Part shown: positions 24,267 through 32,997 of the stretch, in pieces
How the letters are laid out: each line of letters opens with the position of its first letter
How positions within the stretch are numbered: position 1 is the first letter of the stretch
Notes under the pieces: generated by a model
Seen by the model: only the letters and a program-made list of their open reading frames with translations
Databases searched by the model: none
Told to the model about the DNA's origin: nothing
DNA from: Candidatus Omnitrophota bacterium
GTDB taxonomy: Bacteria > Omnitrophota > Gorgyraeia > Gygaellales > Profunditerraquicolaceae
Assembly: GCA_023818655.1 (NCBI GenBank)
Contig: JAMWCI010000006.1
Location: 1-37,703, forward strand
DNA length: 37,703 nt
Direction of reading: 5' to 3'
Position numbers and translations under genes: made by a program

Positions 24267-25259
24267 TTAAGGAACCTCGACCTCCTCAAATATCCTCTTA
24301 ATAATATCTTCAGCGGTTTTTTCCTCCGCCTCCGCTTCATAACTGACAATCACCCGGTGCCTTAAGATATCCGGACCGATAGACTTGACATCCTGCGGTG
24401 TAACATAGCCTCTACCCTGGATAAATGCATAAGCTTTTGCAGCCAGCGCCAGATAAATGCTGGCGCGGGGAGAAGCGCCGTATTGAATTAAATTTGTTAA
24501 GTCGCTTAACTTATATTTCTCCGGTTCTCTTGTAGCAAAAACAATATCCAGGATGTACTTCTCAAGCTTTTCATCCATATATATTTCATTAACTACTTTG
24601 CGGGCGCGCTTAATGTCTTCGGGACCAACTACAGGAGAAACTTTTATCTCTTTATCCGTAACGCTCATCTCTTTCAGGATTTTGCGCTCTTCCTCTTTAT
24701 TGGGGTAGGTGATGTTTATTTTAAGCATAAATCTGTCAACCTGCGCTTCGGGTAAAGGATATGTCCCTTCCTGTTCTATCGGGTTTTGTGTAGCCATTAC
24801 CAAAAATGGCTCATCTAACTTAAAGGTATTCTCTCCGATAGTAACCTGACGCTCCTGCATCGCCTCTAACAGCGCGCTCTGCACCTTGGCCGGGGCGCGG
24901 TTAATCTCGTCAGCTAAAATGATATTGGCAAATATAGGTCCTTTTTTAGTGGTAAAGGTGCCATCTTTGGGATTATAGACAAGCGTTCCAATAAGGTCGG
25001 CGGGAAGTAAATCCGGGGTAAACTGAATCCTCTGGAATTTGGTATTTATTGCCTGAGCAAGGGTTTTTACGGAAAGGGTCTTCGCCAAACCTGGAACGCC
25101 TTCCACAAGCATATGGCCATTAGCCAACAATCCAACCAAAAGGCGTTCAATCAAGTATTTCTGTCCGACAATAATCTTTTCTATCTCATGTTTAAGACTT
25201 ATGACAAAACTGCTCTCTTGTTTTACTTTTTCATTAATAACAGTAATTCCTGTATCCAT
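24267..25259 (-). CDS. MoxR-family AAA+ ATPase
   Basis: GHMLVEGVPGLAKTLSVKTLAQAINTKFQRIQFTPDLLPADLIGT...ILADEINRAPAKVQSALLEAMQERQVTIG. Confidence 0.97.
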   Translation of the reverse strand: MDTGITVINEKVKQESSFVISLKHEIEKIIVGQKYLIERLLVGLLANGHMLVEGVPGLAKTLSVKTLAQAINTKFQRIQFTPDLLPADLIGTLVYNPKDGTFTTKKGPIFANIILADEINRAPAKVQSALLEAMQERQVTIGENTFKLDEPFLVMATQNPIEQEGTYPLPEAQVDRFMLKINITYPNKEEERKILKEMSVTDKEIKVSPVVGPEDIKRARKVVNEIYMDEKLEKYILDIVFATREPEKYKLSDLTNLIQYGASPRASIYLALAAKAYAFIQGRGYVTPQDVKSIGPDILRHRVIVSYEAEAEEKTAEDIIKRIFEEVEVP

Positions 25260-25377: not shown

Positions 25378-26655
25378 TTACCTCGCCTGCTTCTTTTTGA
25401 CGCGGATAATAATAACATCGTCTTTGACTTCTGAGGTTATGCTTTTTTCATCGGCGTCTGACGGCAGCAACATGCTCCTTAAAAAATAACCAAAGGTCTG
25501 CGAGCTCAAACGTCTGCCGGCGCCATTCTCCTGCAAACTATCCGCGTATTCTCCGCTTACGGTAATTGTGCCTCTATTTATCTCCACGTTAATTTTATCT
25601 TTGTTCAAATCGGAAATATTTATCTTGTAAATATATTCATCATCTGTTTCCTGCGTATCCAATTGAGCATCGTAGAAGATATCGCCTTTAAACATCCCCC
25701 TCTGGCTGCCCCAACGATTGAAGGCATCCTGCATCAATAAATTCATCTGTTTCTGCATGCGTTTAATTTCATCCCAGGAGTCCCGGTCCTGCTCATCCAA
25801 GGATGGAATAACGGGAGATGACTGGGAATGCGGAAAGATATTGGCCCTCTTGCGTTTCGTCTGAATATTTGCGTTCCGCTTATATTCTTCAATTAATTTT
25901 CGCACTTTCTCTACTGGAATCGCAAAACCTATATTCTGAGAATACTGCACTACTGCCAAATTTATCCCGATAAGCTCGCCATTTAAATTAAATAAAGCCC
26001 CTCCGCTGTTCCCGGGGTTAATAGGGGCATCGATCTGTAACAAGCTGTCGGCAATCAGTTCTCCATATGTAGAATACAGTTTCCTGTTTTTGCCGCTGAC
26101 GATGCCGGAGGTAACAGTATTTTCAAGGCCAAAGGGATTGCCAATGGCAACCACAGTCTCACCGAGCATAAGGTCTTTTGTTTGGCCCAATACGGCCTCA
26201 GTAAGCTCCTTAGGGGGCGTAATCTTAATAAGAGCCAAATCTTCTTCGGAATCTTCATACAACACCTTGCCCTTTGCCTGCATACCGTCGTTTAGAATAA
26301 CATAAATGGAATCAGCCATATTGACGACATGGGCATTGGTTACAATAAGCCCGCTTTTATCTATAATGACTCCCGAGCCTACGCTCTTTAGCTTCATAGC
26401 CTGCGTCATTCCGTGAAGCGAGAAGAACTGGTCAAACAGGGTATCCAAATCCCCTCCGTAATTGCCCCAAAGCGGATTCTGCCTAAGGAATAAAACCCTC
26501 TCTGTGCTGATATTCACTACCGCTGCGGATGAACCTTTAACAACTTTAACGACAGGGGTCTGGCGATTATTTATCTCCGAAGCGTAACTAATTTTCCAAA
26601 CGGCACTTAATACCAGTAAAACTACAGATGATTTCTTCAGCAGTTTCGCCAACAT
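25378..26655 (-). CDS. Secreted HtrA/DegP-like trypsin-type serine protease fused to a C-terminal Hsp20/alpha-crystallin domain
   Basis: Signal peptide; VNISTERV...GSGVIIDKSGLIVTNAHVVNMAD...EEDLALIKI...DAPINPGNSGGALFNLNGELIGIN. Residues ~290-425: WDEIKRMQKQMNLLMQDAF...DDEYIYKINISDLNKDKINVEINRGTITVSGEYAD...FGYFLRSMLLPSDADEKSITSEVKDDVIIIRVKK (Hsp20-type). No PDZ-like segment seen. Confidence 0.9.
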   Translation of the reverse strand: MLAKLLKKSSVVLLVLSAVWKISYASEINNRQTPVVKVVKGSSAAVVNISTERVLFLRQNPLWGNYGGDLDTLFDQFFSLHGMTQAMKLKSVGSGVIIDKSGLIVTNAHVVNMADSIYVILNDGMQAKGKVLYEDSEEDLALIKITPPKELTEAVLGQTKDLMLGETVVAIGNPFGLENTVTSGIVSGKNRKLYSTYGELIADSLLQIDAPINPGNSGGALFNLNGELIGINLAVVQYSQNIGFAIPVEKVRKLIEEYKRNANIQTKRKRANIFPHSQSSPVIPSLDEQDRDSWDEIKRMQKQMNLLMQDAFNRWGSQRGMFKGDIFYDAQLDTQETDDEYIYKINISDLNKDKINVEINRGTITVSGEYADSLQENGAGRRLSSQTFGYFLRSMLLPSDADEKSITSEVKDDVIIIRVKKKQAR

Positions 26656-26660
26656 AGCAA

Positions 26661-27317
26661 CTATCTCCTTTTTGGTATATATTTATTTCTTAGGGAGCTG
26701 TTCTTTAAGATTGCGATTCTATCTCTAATGTATTCGCTACCTAGCGCAATGTCATCTTTATAAACAGGATTGTAAACGCCATTAAGAAAGAATTTTTCTC
26801 TAATTATAACGCAAATTTTAGGCAATTTCAAAAAGTTATTCTCATAACCGGACACATTATAAACGTCATTTATATATAAAGGGATAATAGGGGGTTTGGA
26901 TTTAAGTCCAAGGTAAGCTGCGCCTGAAAGAAATGTATTTAATTTTCCATTTCTTGATAATCGTCCTTCTGAGAATACGCCTATAATCCGCTCTTGTTTT
27001 AAAAGACGCCTGGCCTCTTTCAGCGCTTCTTTATTGCTACCCTTACCCGGCTCTACCTTAAAAAAAGGGATTCGTTTAGCAAAAAAAGAGAAAGGTTTAA
27101 TACGAAAAACCCAAATTGCTACTAACCAATGTATTATACGGTTTGTGCAACAGGTAACTACGAAAGGATCAAGAAGACTCGTGTAATTGACGACTAATAT
27201 GGCAGGACATTGCGAAGGTATGTTTTCTTTTCCTTTTATCTCCAATCGGAAAACTATCTTTAATATTACAAAAAATAACCCTTGGGAAACATAGTAAACA
27301 CACTTGCCAATATCCAT
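26661..27317 (-). CDS. 1-acyl-sn-glycerol-3-phosphate acyltransferase (PlsC family)
   Basis: CPAILVVNYTSLLDPFVV...FFKVEPGKGSNKEALKEARRLLKQERIIGVFSEGRLSRNGKLNTFLSGAAYLGLKSKPPIIPLYI. The usual HX4D histidine appears as N(YTSLL)D. Confidence 0.85.
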   Translation of the reverse strand: MDIGKCVYYVSQGLFFVILKIVFRLEIKGKENIPSQCPAILVVNYTSLLDPFVVTCCTNRIIHWLVAIWVFRIKPFSFFAKRIPFFKVEPGKGSNKEALKEARRLLKQERIIGVFSEGRLSRNGKLNTFLSGAAYLGLKSKPPIIPLYINDVYNVSGYENNFLKLPKICVIIREKFFLNGVYNPVYKDDIALGSEYIRDRIAILKNSSLRNKYIPKRR

Positions 27318-27327
27318 TGTATTAAAT

Positions 27328-27534
27328 TTATCCGTATTTTATTCCGAGGGATGTTCGTTTTGTCTCTTTGCGACTGCCGACTGACTCATGGCATTGCACA
27401 CAGCGATAATCGTACAGCTCTCCGTCAGGCAATACCAAAAGCAGTGTTTCTTGCACTGGCATAGACCTGCCACAGTTGGCACAATACAGATGTGTGGCGG
27501 TCATTTTTTCAAATTGCCTCATTTCTTCCACCAA
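27328..27534 (-). CDS. Small zinc-ribbon protein
   Basis: HLYCANCGRSMPVQ...YDYRCVQCHESVGS; overlaps the upstream gene by 16 bp. Confidence 0.65.
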   Translation of the reverse strand: MVEEMRQFEKMTATHLYCANCGRSMPVQETLLLVLPDGELYDYRCVQCHESVGSRKETKRTSLGIKYG

Positions 27535-28058
27535 TCCGCGTCATCCTCTTCTTCATTGTTAAATTCGCTAAAGTCCGAAGGCAAAATGATATTGAAATAA
27601 AGAAAAAGACATCCGGGGATATCGCCGATGCCTTTGAACTTTTTAAGATCCTTTAAATTTTTTGGAAGACTATCGCCAATCTCCGGCATATAATCTTTCA
27701 GCAGTGCCTGCATCTTGCGCAAAACCTCTTCTTGCAACTGGAGCCCTAACGGTAAAGTCGGCAATTTTTTACTGCACTTCCTGCAGTAGAATTTTATATC
27801 TCCGCATCGAATGCATTCTCCAACAAAGAATTCCTCTAATGTGAACTTCTGTTTGCATCCAACGCAATGCAGCTTCCTTTGACAAGCAGCGCAGATGCTT
27901 AGCGTCTTAAGAGACGCTGTCTTAAAAACTAACGGACTATCAGTAAAATATATCTTGCCACAAAATTTACATTCTAAGGGGAAGTCTGTGCCTGAGGGAA
28001 ACGTTTCTATTTTTTTACATATATATTTATGCCTTCTACATTTTGTCTCCTTGGTCAT
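27519..28058 (-). CDS. Multi-zinc-ribbon protein of unknown function
   Basis: LECKFCGKIYF...ICAACQRKLHCVGCKQKF...GECIRCGDIKFYCRKCSKKLP; acidic C-terminus. Confidence 0.75.
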   Translation of the reverse strand: MTKETKCRRHKYICKKIETFPSGTDFPLECKFCGKIYFTDSPLVFKTASLKTLSICAACQRKLHCVGCKQKFTLEEFFVGECIRCGDIKFYCRKCSKKLPTLPLGLQLQEEVLRKMQALLKDYMPEIGDSLPKNLKDLKKFKGIGDIPGCLFLYFNIILPSDFSEFNNEEEDDADWWKK

Positions 28059-30887: not shown

Positions 30888-31565
30888 TTATAATACCTGA
30901 ATCTTTTTCCCTGATGCTTCTTTATCCACATAGACAGCTGTTTTGGCAATCTTAATAGTTAATACTCCATCCTTATAATCTGCGGTTATCTCATCCTCTT
31001 TTATATTCTCGGGCAGTGAAATAACCCTTGAAAAATGCCCATAGCTTCTTTCCTGTTTAAAAAACTTATCCGCCTTCTCTTCTTCAAGCACGGTTTCTCG
31101 TTCGCCAGAGACCTTAAGTATTTTGTTCTTGATTTCAACATTTATTTTATCCTTATTCATTCCAGGCAAATCCATTGTTATCGTATAATGCGTCTTGTCT
31201 TCCCTAATATCTATATCCGGCTCAAAGAAATTTTCTTCAGTAAAAGACAATAACCCCTGACTTCCCAGGTTTCTTTTTAGGTTCTCGGCAAATATCTTGT
31301 TAAAACGTTGATGCATTCGCCTCATTTCTTCAAATGGCTTAAATTTATCAACAAAGAAATCATCCCGTTGCCAGTCATCATTAAAAATCCTCTGAATAAA
31401 TCTTGTAATCGGCGATTTCCACAGACTTACCGAGGAGCCAACTTTCAGCGCGACATTTCCAAACTTATCTATACGTTTCTTTAGGATAATCAGATACGCC
31501 CCTTCAACCACTAAGCCGATACTCAATATTATTATCAAAACTATTAATATCTTCTGATTTTTCAT
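30888..31565 (-). CDS. Membrane-anchored Hsp20/alpha-crystallin protein
   Basis: N-terminal TM (ILIVLIIILSIGLVVEGAYLIIL), then FEEMRRMHQRFNKIFAE...EPDIDIREDKTHYTITMDLPGMNKDKINVEIKNKILKVSGERE...GHFSRVISLPENIKEDEITADYKDGVLTIKI. Confidence 0.92.
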   Translation of the reverse strand: MKNQKILIVLIIILSIGLVVEGAYLIILKKRIDKFGNVALKVGSSVSLWKSPITRFIQRIFNDDWQRDDFFVDKFKPFEEMRRMHQRFNKIFAENLKRNLGSQGLLSFTEENFFEPDIDIREDKTHYTITMDLPGMNKDKINVEIKNKILKVSGERETVLEEEKADKFFKQERSYGHFSRVISLPENIKEDEITADYKDGVLTIKIAKTAVYVDKEASGKKIQVL

Positions 31566-32659: not shown

Positions 32660-32686
32660 TTAGCACTCTTTATATTGGAGTACCAA
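32660..32686. promoter_or_regulatory. CIRCE-like HrcA operator
   Basis: TTAGCACTC-TTTATATTG-GAGTACCAA against consensus TTAGCACTC-N9-GAGTGCTAA: left half perfect, 2 mismatches in the right half. Upstream of the hsp20 gene. Confidence 0.8.
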
Positions 32687-32703: not shown

Positions 32704-32997
32704 TTAATCCTTTTTAAAGATTTTCTTCTCAATCTCTAATATAACTTTTAAACCATCCACCTTTACCTTCTTTTCTTTCATCAGGTACCAAATATGGCTC
32801 AATCTATCCAACTCACCCTTAGAATAAAGTCGCGATTTCCCTTTTTTTCTGGGTGGACGAACAATGTTCTCTTTATCAAGCTGCTTGAGCACCCAGACCG
32901 GTATGCCTAAAAGCCGGTGGATAACGCCGCTGGTATATACCGGCTCATTTATGTCAACATCAAAAACATCGCCGTATTTGACTTCTTTTTTCATCAC
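32704..32997 (-). CDS. MerR-family (HspR-like) transcriptional regulator
   Basis: INEPVYTSGVIHRLLGIPVWVLKQLDKENIVRPPRKKGKSRLYSKGELDRLSHIWYLMKEKKVKVDGLKVILEIE. Confidence 0.82.
   Translation of the reverse strand: MMKKEVKYGDVFDVDINEPVYTSGVIHRLLGIPVWVLKQLDKENIVRPPRKKGKSRLYSKGELDRLSHIWYLMKEKKVKVDGLKVILEIEKKIFKKD

Follow-up and report, generated by a model that had tools for sequence, protein, structure and literature searches.

A predicted exported HtrA-type protease with a C-terminal alpha-crystallin domain is conserved in Candidatus Omnitrophota

An HtrA core joined to an alpha-crystallin domain

We found that a single gene of a Candidatus Omnitrophota bacterium encodes an HtrA-type protease core followed by an alpha-crystallin domain (ACD), the fold of small heat shock proteins (sHSPs), where a PDZ domain normally sits. 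Our data comprise 15 intact fusions, namely the protein described here (P0001) and 14 orthologues, together with one frameshifted copy, all from independent assemblies. The best explanation, to which we give a probability of about 0.6, is an exported HtrA protease whose C-terminal ACD, rather than a PDZ domain, captures clients in cis for cleavage. The PDZ domain is usually viewed as the sensor that defines HtrA proteases, and sHSPs are viewed as stand-alone, mostly cytosolic holdases. The fusion is a natural, conserved case in which an HtrA core has been combined in evolution with a different client-binding fold.

The gene lies on the minus strand of the window, by which we mean the whole stretch of 37,703 nucleotides analyzed here, and reads from 26655 to 25378 with no internal stops, behind an aaggag ribosome-binding site just 5' of the ATG start. 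An uninterrupted 425-aa frame had been described in the initial annotation, which gave no strand, and all the motifs quoted there (NAHVV, DLALI, GNSGGAL and WDEIKRMQKQMNLLMQDAF) were recovered. The features of the gene and its two neighbours are as follows.

26661..27317, minus strand: PlsC-type acyltransferase, upstream neighbour (PF01553; 5 bp from the fusion)
25378..26655, minus strand: gene of the 425-aa HtrA-ACD fusion (stop codon 25378-25380; orthologues intact in 14 further assemblies)
26581..26655, minus strand: signal peptide, residues 1 to about 25, MLAKLLKKSSVVLLVLSAVWKISYA (read from the sequence; hydrophobic N-terminus kept in orthologues)
25876..26553, minus strand: HtrA-type trypsin-like protease domain, residues 35-260 (TIGR02037; Trypsin_2; Foldseek)
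26329..26331, minus strand: catalytic His109 (invariant in the A3 alignment)
26239..26241, minus strand: catalytic Asp139 (invariant in the A3 alignment)
26083..26085, minus strand: Arg191, at the L3 sensor-loop arginine position (invariant in the A3 alignment; aligned to the loop arginine of DegQ; putative role)
26005..26007, minus strand: catalytic Ser217 of GNSGGA (invariant in the A3 alignment)
25780..25875, minus strand: disordered and variable linker, residues 261-292, at the place expected for PDZ1 (pLDDT about 40-64; fastest-changing part; no PDZ)
25672..25779, minus strand: N-terminal lead-in of sHSP type, WDEIKRMQKQMNLLMQDAF, with a short loop, residues 293-328 (AlphaFold helix 293-313; lead-in in 11 of 15 fusions)
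25393..25671, minus strand: ACD, residues 329-421 (Pfam HSP20; PDB sequence search; AlphaFold model and Foldseek)
24267..25259, minus strand: MoxR AAA ATPase, downstream neighbour and first gene of the Bat/vWA operon (AAA_3, E 1.9e-66)

Both halves of P0001 are recognized by profile models. Pfam places Trypsin_2 at residues 93-231 (E 2e-32) and HSP20 at 334-424 (E 6e-11, with a bit score twice the curated cut-off), and no PDZ model matches up to E = 1, as expected from the earlier remark that no PDZ segment follows the protease. In NCBIfam, the Do/HtrA subfamily TIGR02037 matches residues 35-265 (E 2.4e-70) with a score of 237.7 against a family cut-off of 416.2; the score falls below the cut-off because the protease half alone matches and the PDZ half is missing. 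P0001 therefore has the trypsin-like domain, the His-Asp-Ser triad and the HtrA-type sequence of the family, and it carries an export signal, itself a reading of the sequence. It lacks the C-terminal PDZ domain, of which HtrA proteins by definition have at least one (PMC11642142), and its C-terminal part folds as an ACD, the hallmark domain of sHSPs. The N-termini of the orthologues retain a hydrophobic segment despite diverging sequence, with a cleavage-like site, and the fusion protein is most likely Sec-exported and predicted to be periplasmic. Overall, the domains and the N-terminal signal support the proposal that the gene encodes an exported chaperone-protease hybrid with Hsp20 at the usual PDZ position.

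An AlphaFold model of P0001, built from 31 sequences, is confident over most of the protease (most blocks of residues 81-260 above 85 pLDDT) and over the ACD core (most blocks 83-94). Residues 270-291 and 311-326 fall below 50 pLDDT and are disordered, with the helix 293-313 between them. The ACD strands of the model span residues 332-336, 340-346, 356-360, 363-378, 381-396, 401-411 and 414-421. In Foldseek searches the whole model matches HtrA/Deg1/DegP proteases, and the best 50 PDB matches of the C-terminal part are exclusively ACDs, led by the core domain of human alphaB-crystallin (TMt up to 0.84). When the C-terminal 100 residues were searched as a single sequence against the PDB, the matches were again exclusively small heat shock proteins and crystallins, including wheat Hsp16.9 (E 1e-6). 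Pfam, the PDB sequence search and AlphaFold/Foldseek thus confirm the C-terminal domain as an ACD and leave no place for a PDZ or other fold. The initial annotation had assigned about 135 residues to the Hsp20 type; the ACD is real, but the folded domain covers residues of about 329-421, and the remainder consists of the lead-in helix (293-313) and part of the disordered linker.

Distribution and conservation of the fusion

We asked how widely the fusion is distributed. The host genome (1.57 Mb, 91% complete, 147 contigs) holds it as the sole HtrA match, and five of 108 genomes of the same family, the host included, carry it across three genera. A profile search over 384 Omnitrophota genomes found the fusion in ten genomes, one of them with the frameshifted copy, from five families and two classes, and a protease-only relative in nine. 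A second genome draw added one more (G502, family f48), with a 416-aa frame that equals the L077 fusion in length. The families with fusions, all Omnitrophota, are f1, f36, f43, f47 and f48 in the host's own class and f59 in another class. When the GTDB contig collection was scanned with a 50-aa core alignment, the further fusions all came from Candidatus Omnitrophota except for one contig labelled Ruminococcaceae UBA1447. Among the matches listed by tblastn against plasmids there were ordinary HtrAs only. These searches covered Omnitrophota genomes, the GTDB contig collection and plasmids, and other phyla may hold independent fusions.

The architecture is maintained wherever the gene is intact. 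None of the 15 intact proteins contains an internal stop, and in Pfam all 11 fusions examined (P0001 and ten others) score above cut-off for Trypsin_2 and HSP20 and none matches PDZ. The dN/dS ratio is 0.03-0.10 for the protease and 0.07-0.31 for the ACD; pairs with both ratios defined have the higher value in the ACD, and the linker evolves faster. These values indicate purifying selection on the ACD and hence its retention for a function.

Our data indicate that several genomes have the fusion in place of the ordinary HtrA. Of the 12 genomes with an intact fusion that were tested, seven (G000, G018, G147, G159, G200, G252 and G169) have no other Trypsin_2 protein, and the only PDZ matches of G000 are frames of 420 and 385 aa, neither with Trypsin_2. 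The fusion ACD is also the only HSP20 domain found in five genomes (G080, G147, G159, G169 and G261), of which G147 and G159 are merely about 75% complete. The module is nevertheless not essential to the lineage, since protease-only relatives manage without a C-terminal module and some close relatives are without any HtrA.

Several single cases were observed alongside. Four genomes of genus g13 (G012, G062, G084 and G086), each 94-95% complete, contain no Trypsin_2 protein, and HtrA seems dispensable there. Genus g136 includes one genome with the fusion (G252, 436-aa frame) and one with a 280-aa PDZ-less protease (G481), which suggests that the ACD was gained or lost at the genus level. In the frameshifted copy (L081 4758-5825, G397), the apparent frameshift falls in the ACD on a contig of 1.6x coverage; it is probably a sequencing error and possibly decay.

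Evolutionary origin

In an unrooted protease tree the fusions group together (support 90/80), with protease-only HtrAs of 274-292 aa as their sister (99/90), and both are split from the PDZ-bearing Omnitrophota HtrAs (100/99). The sister clade (L082-L086, L103, L107, L108 and L109) is mostly of 274-292 aa, lacks PDZ and ACD, and includes some members with a lipobox-like signal. From this branching, the common lineage of the fusions and the protease-only HtrAs probably either lost its PDZ domain, at its root or earlier, or never had one, with the ACD added later; on this unrooted tree, loss of the ACD in the protease-only sisters is a less probable alternative. The description of an ACD in place of PDZ domains therefore holds for the position it occupies, but the PDZ was probably already absent, since the sister clade consists of protease-only HtrAs.

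The ACD tree points to an exported partner. Fourteen of the 15 fusion ACDs form one clade (100/100) with the ACD of a lipoprotein (L033) and the standalone exported sHSP L119, and this clade nests among sHSPs that are exported or TM-anchored (85/82) and is separate from the cytosolic ones. The remaining ACD, that of L077, adjoins a TM-anchored sHSP. A separate origin for it is suggested by the tree and is not required, as a single clade of the fusions, L033 and L119 was compatible with the data (AU p 0.41). These data suggest that one HtrA and one exported sHSP probably fused once. Furthermore, the WDPFxEM-type lead-in is recognizable in 11 of the 15 fusions (it is lost in three from genus g13 and reduced in L077), so that a whole exported sHSP, including its N-terminal region, was probably joined to the protease.

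Export or membrane anchoring is an unusual location for sHSPs. Such proteins are numerous in Omnitrophota, where they form several families in the ACD tree (window 30888-31565 on the minus strand, L121 2246-2941, L036 4616-5299, L119 454-1086, L126, L125, L134 and L127). The lipoprotein in the fusion clade is a protein of 887 aa from genus g13 (L033 2897-5560, G012:C7) that carries an ACD of the fusion type at its C-terminus, encoded beside a MoxR/DUF58 operon; here the ACD seems to have moved onto an unrelated exported protein.

Features kept and lost by the fusion ACD

Part of the sHSP repertoire has been discarded. In all 15 intact fusions the protein stops 0-3 residues past the matched ACD, without the C-terminal I-x-I tail by which sHSPs build oligomers, whereas the standalone sHSPs compared extend 11-18 residues beyond the domain and carry a C-terminal I/V-x-I/V motif, the exceptions being L119 (2 residues) and L046 (a tail with no motif). 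The GVL glycine near strand beta9 is replaced in 15 of 15 fusions and present in the comparison sHSPs except L119, and the ER preceding the S-Y/F-G motif is gone from the fusion ACDs. Since the tail and the GVL glycine are lost, sHSP-style oligomerization through the tail is unlikely, and the proposal in the initial annotation that the ACD may drive such oligomerization was not borne out.

We reasoned that the fusion ACD has likely been released from sHSP assembly, which would leave its edge groove open. In MjHSP16.5, removal of the last residues with I-x-I stops oligomerization and raises chaperone activity (PMC3638399), a result that fits a tail-less fusion ACD acting as a holdase. The lost hallmarks (GVL glycine, ER motif and I-x-I tail) could also mean that the fusion ACD no longer binds clients. 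The lead-in, a region with which sHSPs often bind clients, is missing from three fusions and reduced in a fourth, which likewise counts against client binding.

Comparison with known systems

The fusion shares its signal peptide and HtrA core with catalytic triad with the DegP/DegQ/HhoA-type HtrAs (S1C; TIGR02037) and differs from them in the absence of PDZ. Among the matches listed, the solved chains nearest to it in sequence are those of cyanobacterial HhoA, Thermotoga HtrA and E. coli DegQ, and no solved chain among the best PDB matches listed covers both a protease and an ACD. HtrA cores without PDZ have precedents. Arabidopsis Deg5 naturally lacks PDZ and can trimerize, yet no activity has been detected for it (PMC3640471); unlike the fusion, it has no ACD and is located in the thylakoid. 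Human HtrA3S remains fully active after removal of PDZ (PMC4481513) and is thus a working PDZ-less core, as proposed for the fusion, although it is an isoform with a 7-residue tail that is monomeric without PDZ and has no ACD.

On the chaperone side, the exported or TM-anchored Omnitrophota sHSPs belong to the same wider ACD lineage and have the WDPFxEM-type lead-in; they lack a protease domain, and most retain the GVL and the I-x-I tail, with L119 resembling the fusions in its missing tail. Canonical sHSPs (wheat Hsp16.9, alphaB-crystallin and MjHSP16.5) share the ACD fold and strand order, whereas the fusion ACD is tethered to a protease and lacks their I-x-I tail and GVL glycine. We found no description of an HtrA joined to an ACD in the open-access literature searched, in agreement with the earlier view that the architecture is not a characterized family. 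As far as found in that literature, the novelty is a new conserved arrangement of two well-known domains, which domain databases may list. The fusion makes testable whether HtrA activation needs PDZ and whether a holdase can hand clients over in cis to a protease. It further points to an exported sHSP repertoire of Omnitrophota and offers a natural model of a protein-quality-control enzyme.

Proposed function and alternative explanations

We hypothesized that the fusion captures and cleaves clients within one molecule. Characterized HtrAs are homo-oligomers of trimers (PMC11642142), and the protease core would trimerize like other HtrAs. The ACD, on its flexible linker, would grip hydrophobic or beta-edge segments that envelope proteins expose on unfolding and hold them near the active sites, raising their local concentration, so that hand-over would occur in cis; ACD pairing may additionally link trimers. 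The HtrA core does not strictly need PDZ, as HtrA3 is fully active without it and DegS activity rises upon its removal, and the invariant Arg191 at the L3 position leaves room for a switch. A stronger version, which we consider less likely than not, is a self-feeding chaperone-protease in which the ACD replaces PDZ both in client capture and in HtrA switching and ACD pairs join trimers into cages. If true, it would represent PDZ-independent HtrA activation and an sHSP acting in cis with a protease.

The ACD might instead be mainly an assembly module whose dimers join trimers into a closed hexamer, 12-mer or 24-mer, as PDZ1-PDZ2 contacts do in DegP cages, with client binding secondary. Three-fold trimers and two-fold ACD dimers could close into cages geometrically, the PDZ1-PDZ2' contacts of DegP hold cages that enclose substrate (PMC11642142; PMC3081313), and an ACD trimmed of its N- and C-terminal regions remains a stable dimer (PMC3638399). 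The model also has a long beta5-beta6/7 hairpin and its best matches are alphaB-crystallin core domains. However, the hairpin tip is weak (pLDDT about 65-72), the I-x-I tail is missing in 15 of 15 fusions, and the linker varies widely in length and sequence, which suits a flexible tether over a fixed cage. We consider this alternative unlikely.

Less probable again is a regulatory lid, in which the ACD would cover the protease or hold it inactive through the L3 loop until displaced by a client, a PDZ-like relief performed by another fold. In DegS the L3 arginine makes an inhibitory PDZ contact and removal of PDZ raises activity (PMC11642142), and the arginine at this position is invariant in the A3 alignment; the long disordered linker, however, disfavours a fixed contact between the domains.

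It is very improbable that the ACD is a tolerated, decaying passenger with no chaperone function, perhaps a spacer or stability tag. Several sHSP hallmarks are lost, the ACD dN/dS exceeds that of the protease in pairs with both defined, and the one frameshift lies in the ACD, on the 1.6x-coverage contig; a dN/dS of 0.07-0.31 and an ACD frame intact in 15 of 15 fusions nevertheless amount to purifying selection, and the same ACD type on the unrelated 887-aa lipoprotein of genus g13 argues for a useful module. An artefact joining two genes in assembly or annotation, conceivable in a fragmented metagenome assembly of 147 contigs with sHSP genes nearby, is ruled out because the homologues are not two separate genes: the 14 other intact orthologues carry the same in-frame join, in one reading frame, at different loci of many independently assembled genomes.

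Genome context

On the minus strand, the window carries in order a MerR-type regulator, three sHSPs (one TM-anchored), groES, groEL, an omega-like subunit, a cysteine-rich protein, plsC and the fusion, and then moxR, DUF58, PpiC-type and Bat genes. The plsC gene and the fusion are likely co-transcribed. A CIRCE-like element at 32660-32686 (2 mismatches, 0 expected by chance) lies upstream of the first sHSP and adjoins the MerR-type regulator gene (32704-32997), and such elements also occur beside sHSP genes of relatives; it is placed ahead of the sHSP/groE genes, to whose transcript the fusion may possibly belong. Matches to the HspR/HAIR operator (CTTGAGT-N7-ACTCAAG) stayed at chance level, and a promoter/terminator scan gave nothing above shuffles.

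Across lineages, the fusion is found with groEL, sHSPs and the Bat operon in two lineages and with DsbD_N/thioredoxin-like genes in others; it is followed by a DsbD_N protein in L080 and L094. In G018 it sits at the opposite end of the Bat operon, near an sHSP and groEL. G057 has the same gene island as the window, but plsC overlaps moxR directly and the fusion is absent, whereas in L072 the fusion sits between the cysteine-rich protein and moxR; the absence in G057 is therefore probably a loss.

The cysteine-rich protein (179 aa; window 27519-28058, minus strand) has no Pfam or NCBIfam match and is kept between groEL and fusion/moxR in G057 and L072. The L072 contig is the one labelled Ruminococcaceae bacterium UBA1447 (DCTF01000062.1). 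Its genes are Omnitrophota-like and share the window's order (groES-groEL-cysteine-rich protein-fusion-moxR-DUF58), so that the contig is probably mis-binned and the genome label wrong or mixed. Finally, one Trypsin_2 match (G080:C3:65257-65727) lies within a giant ORF of the type seen in Omnitrophota, whose frame is open for 37,731 aa.
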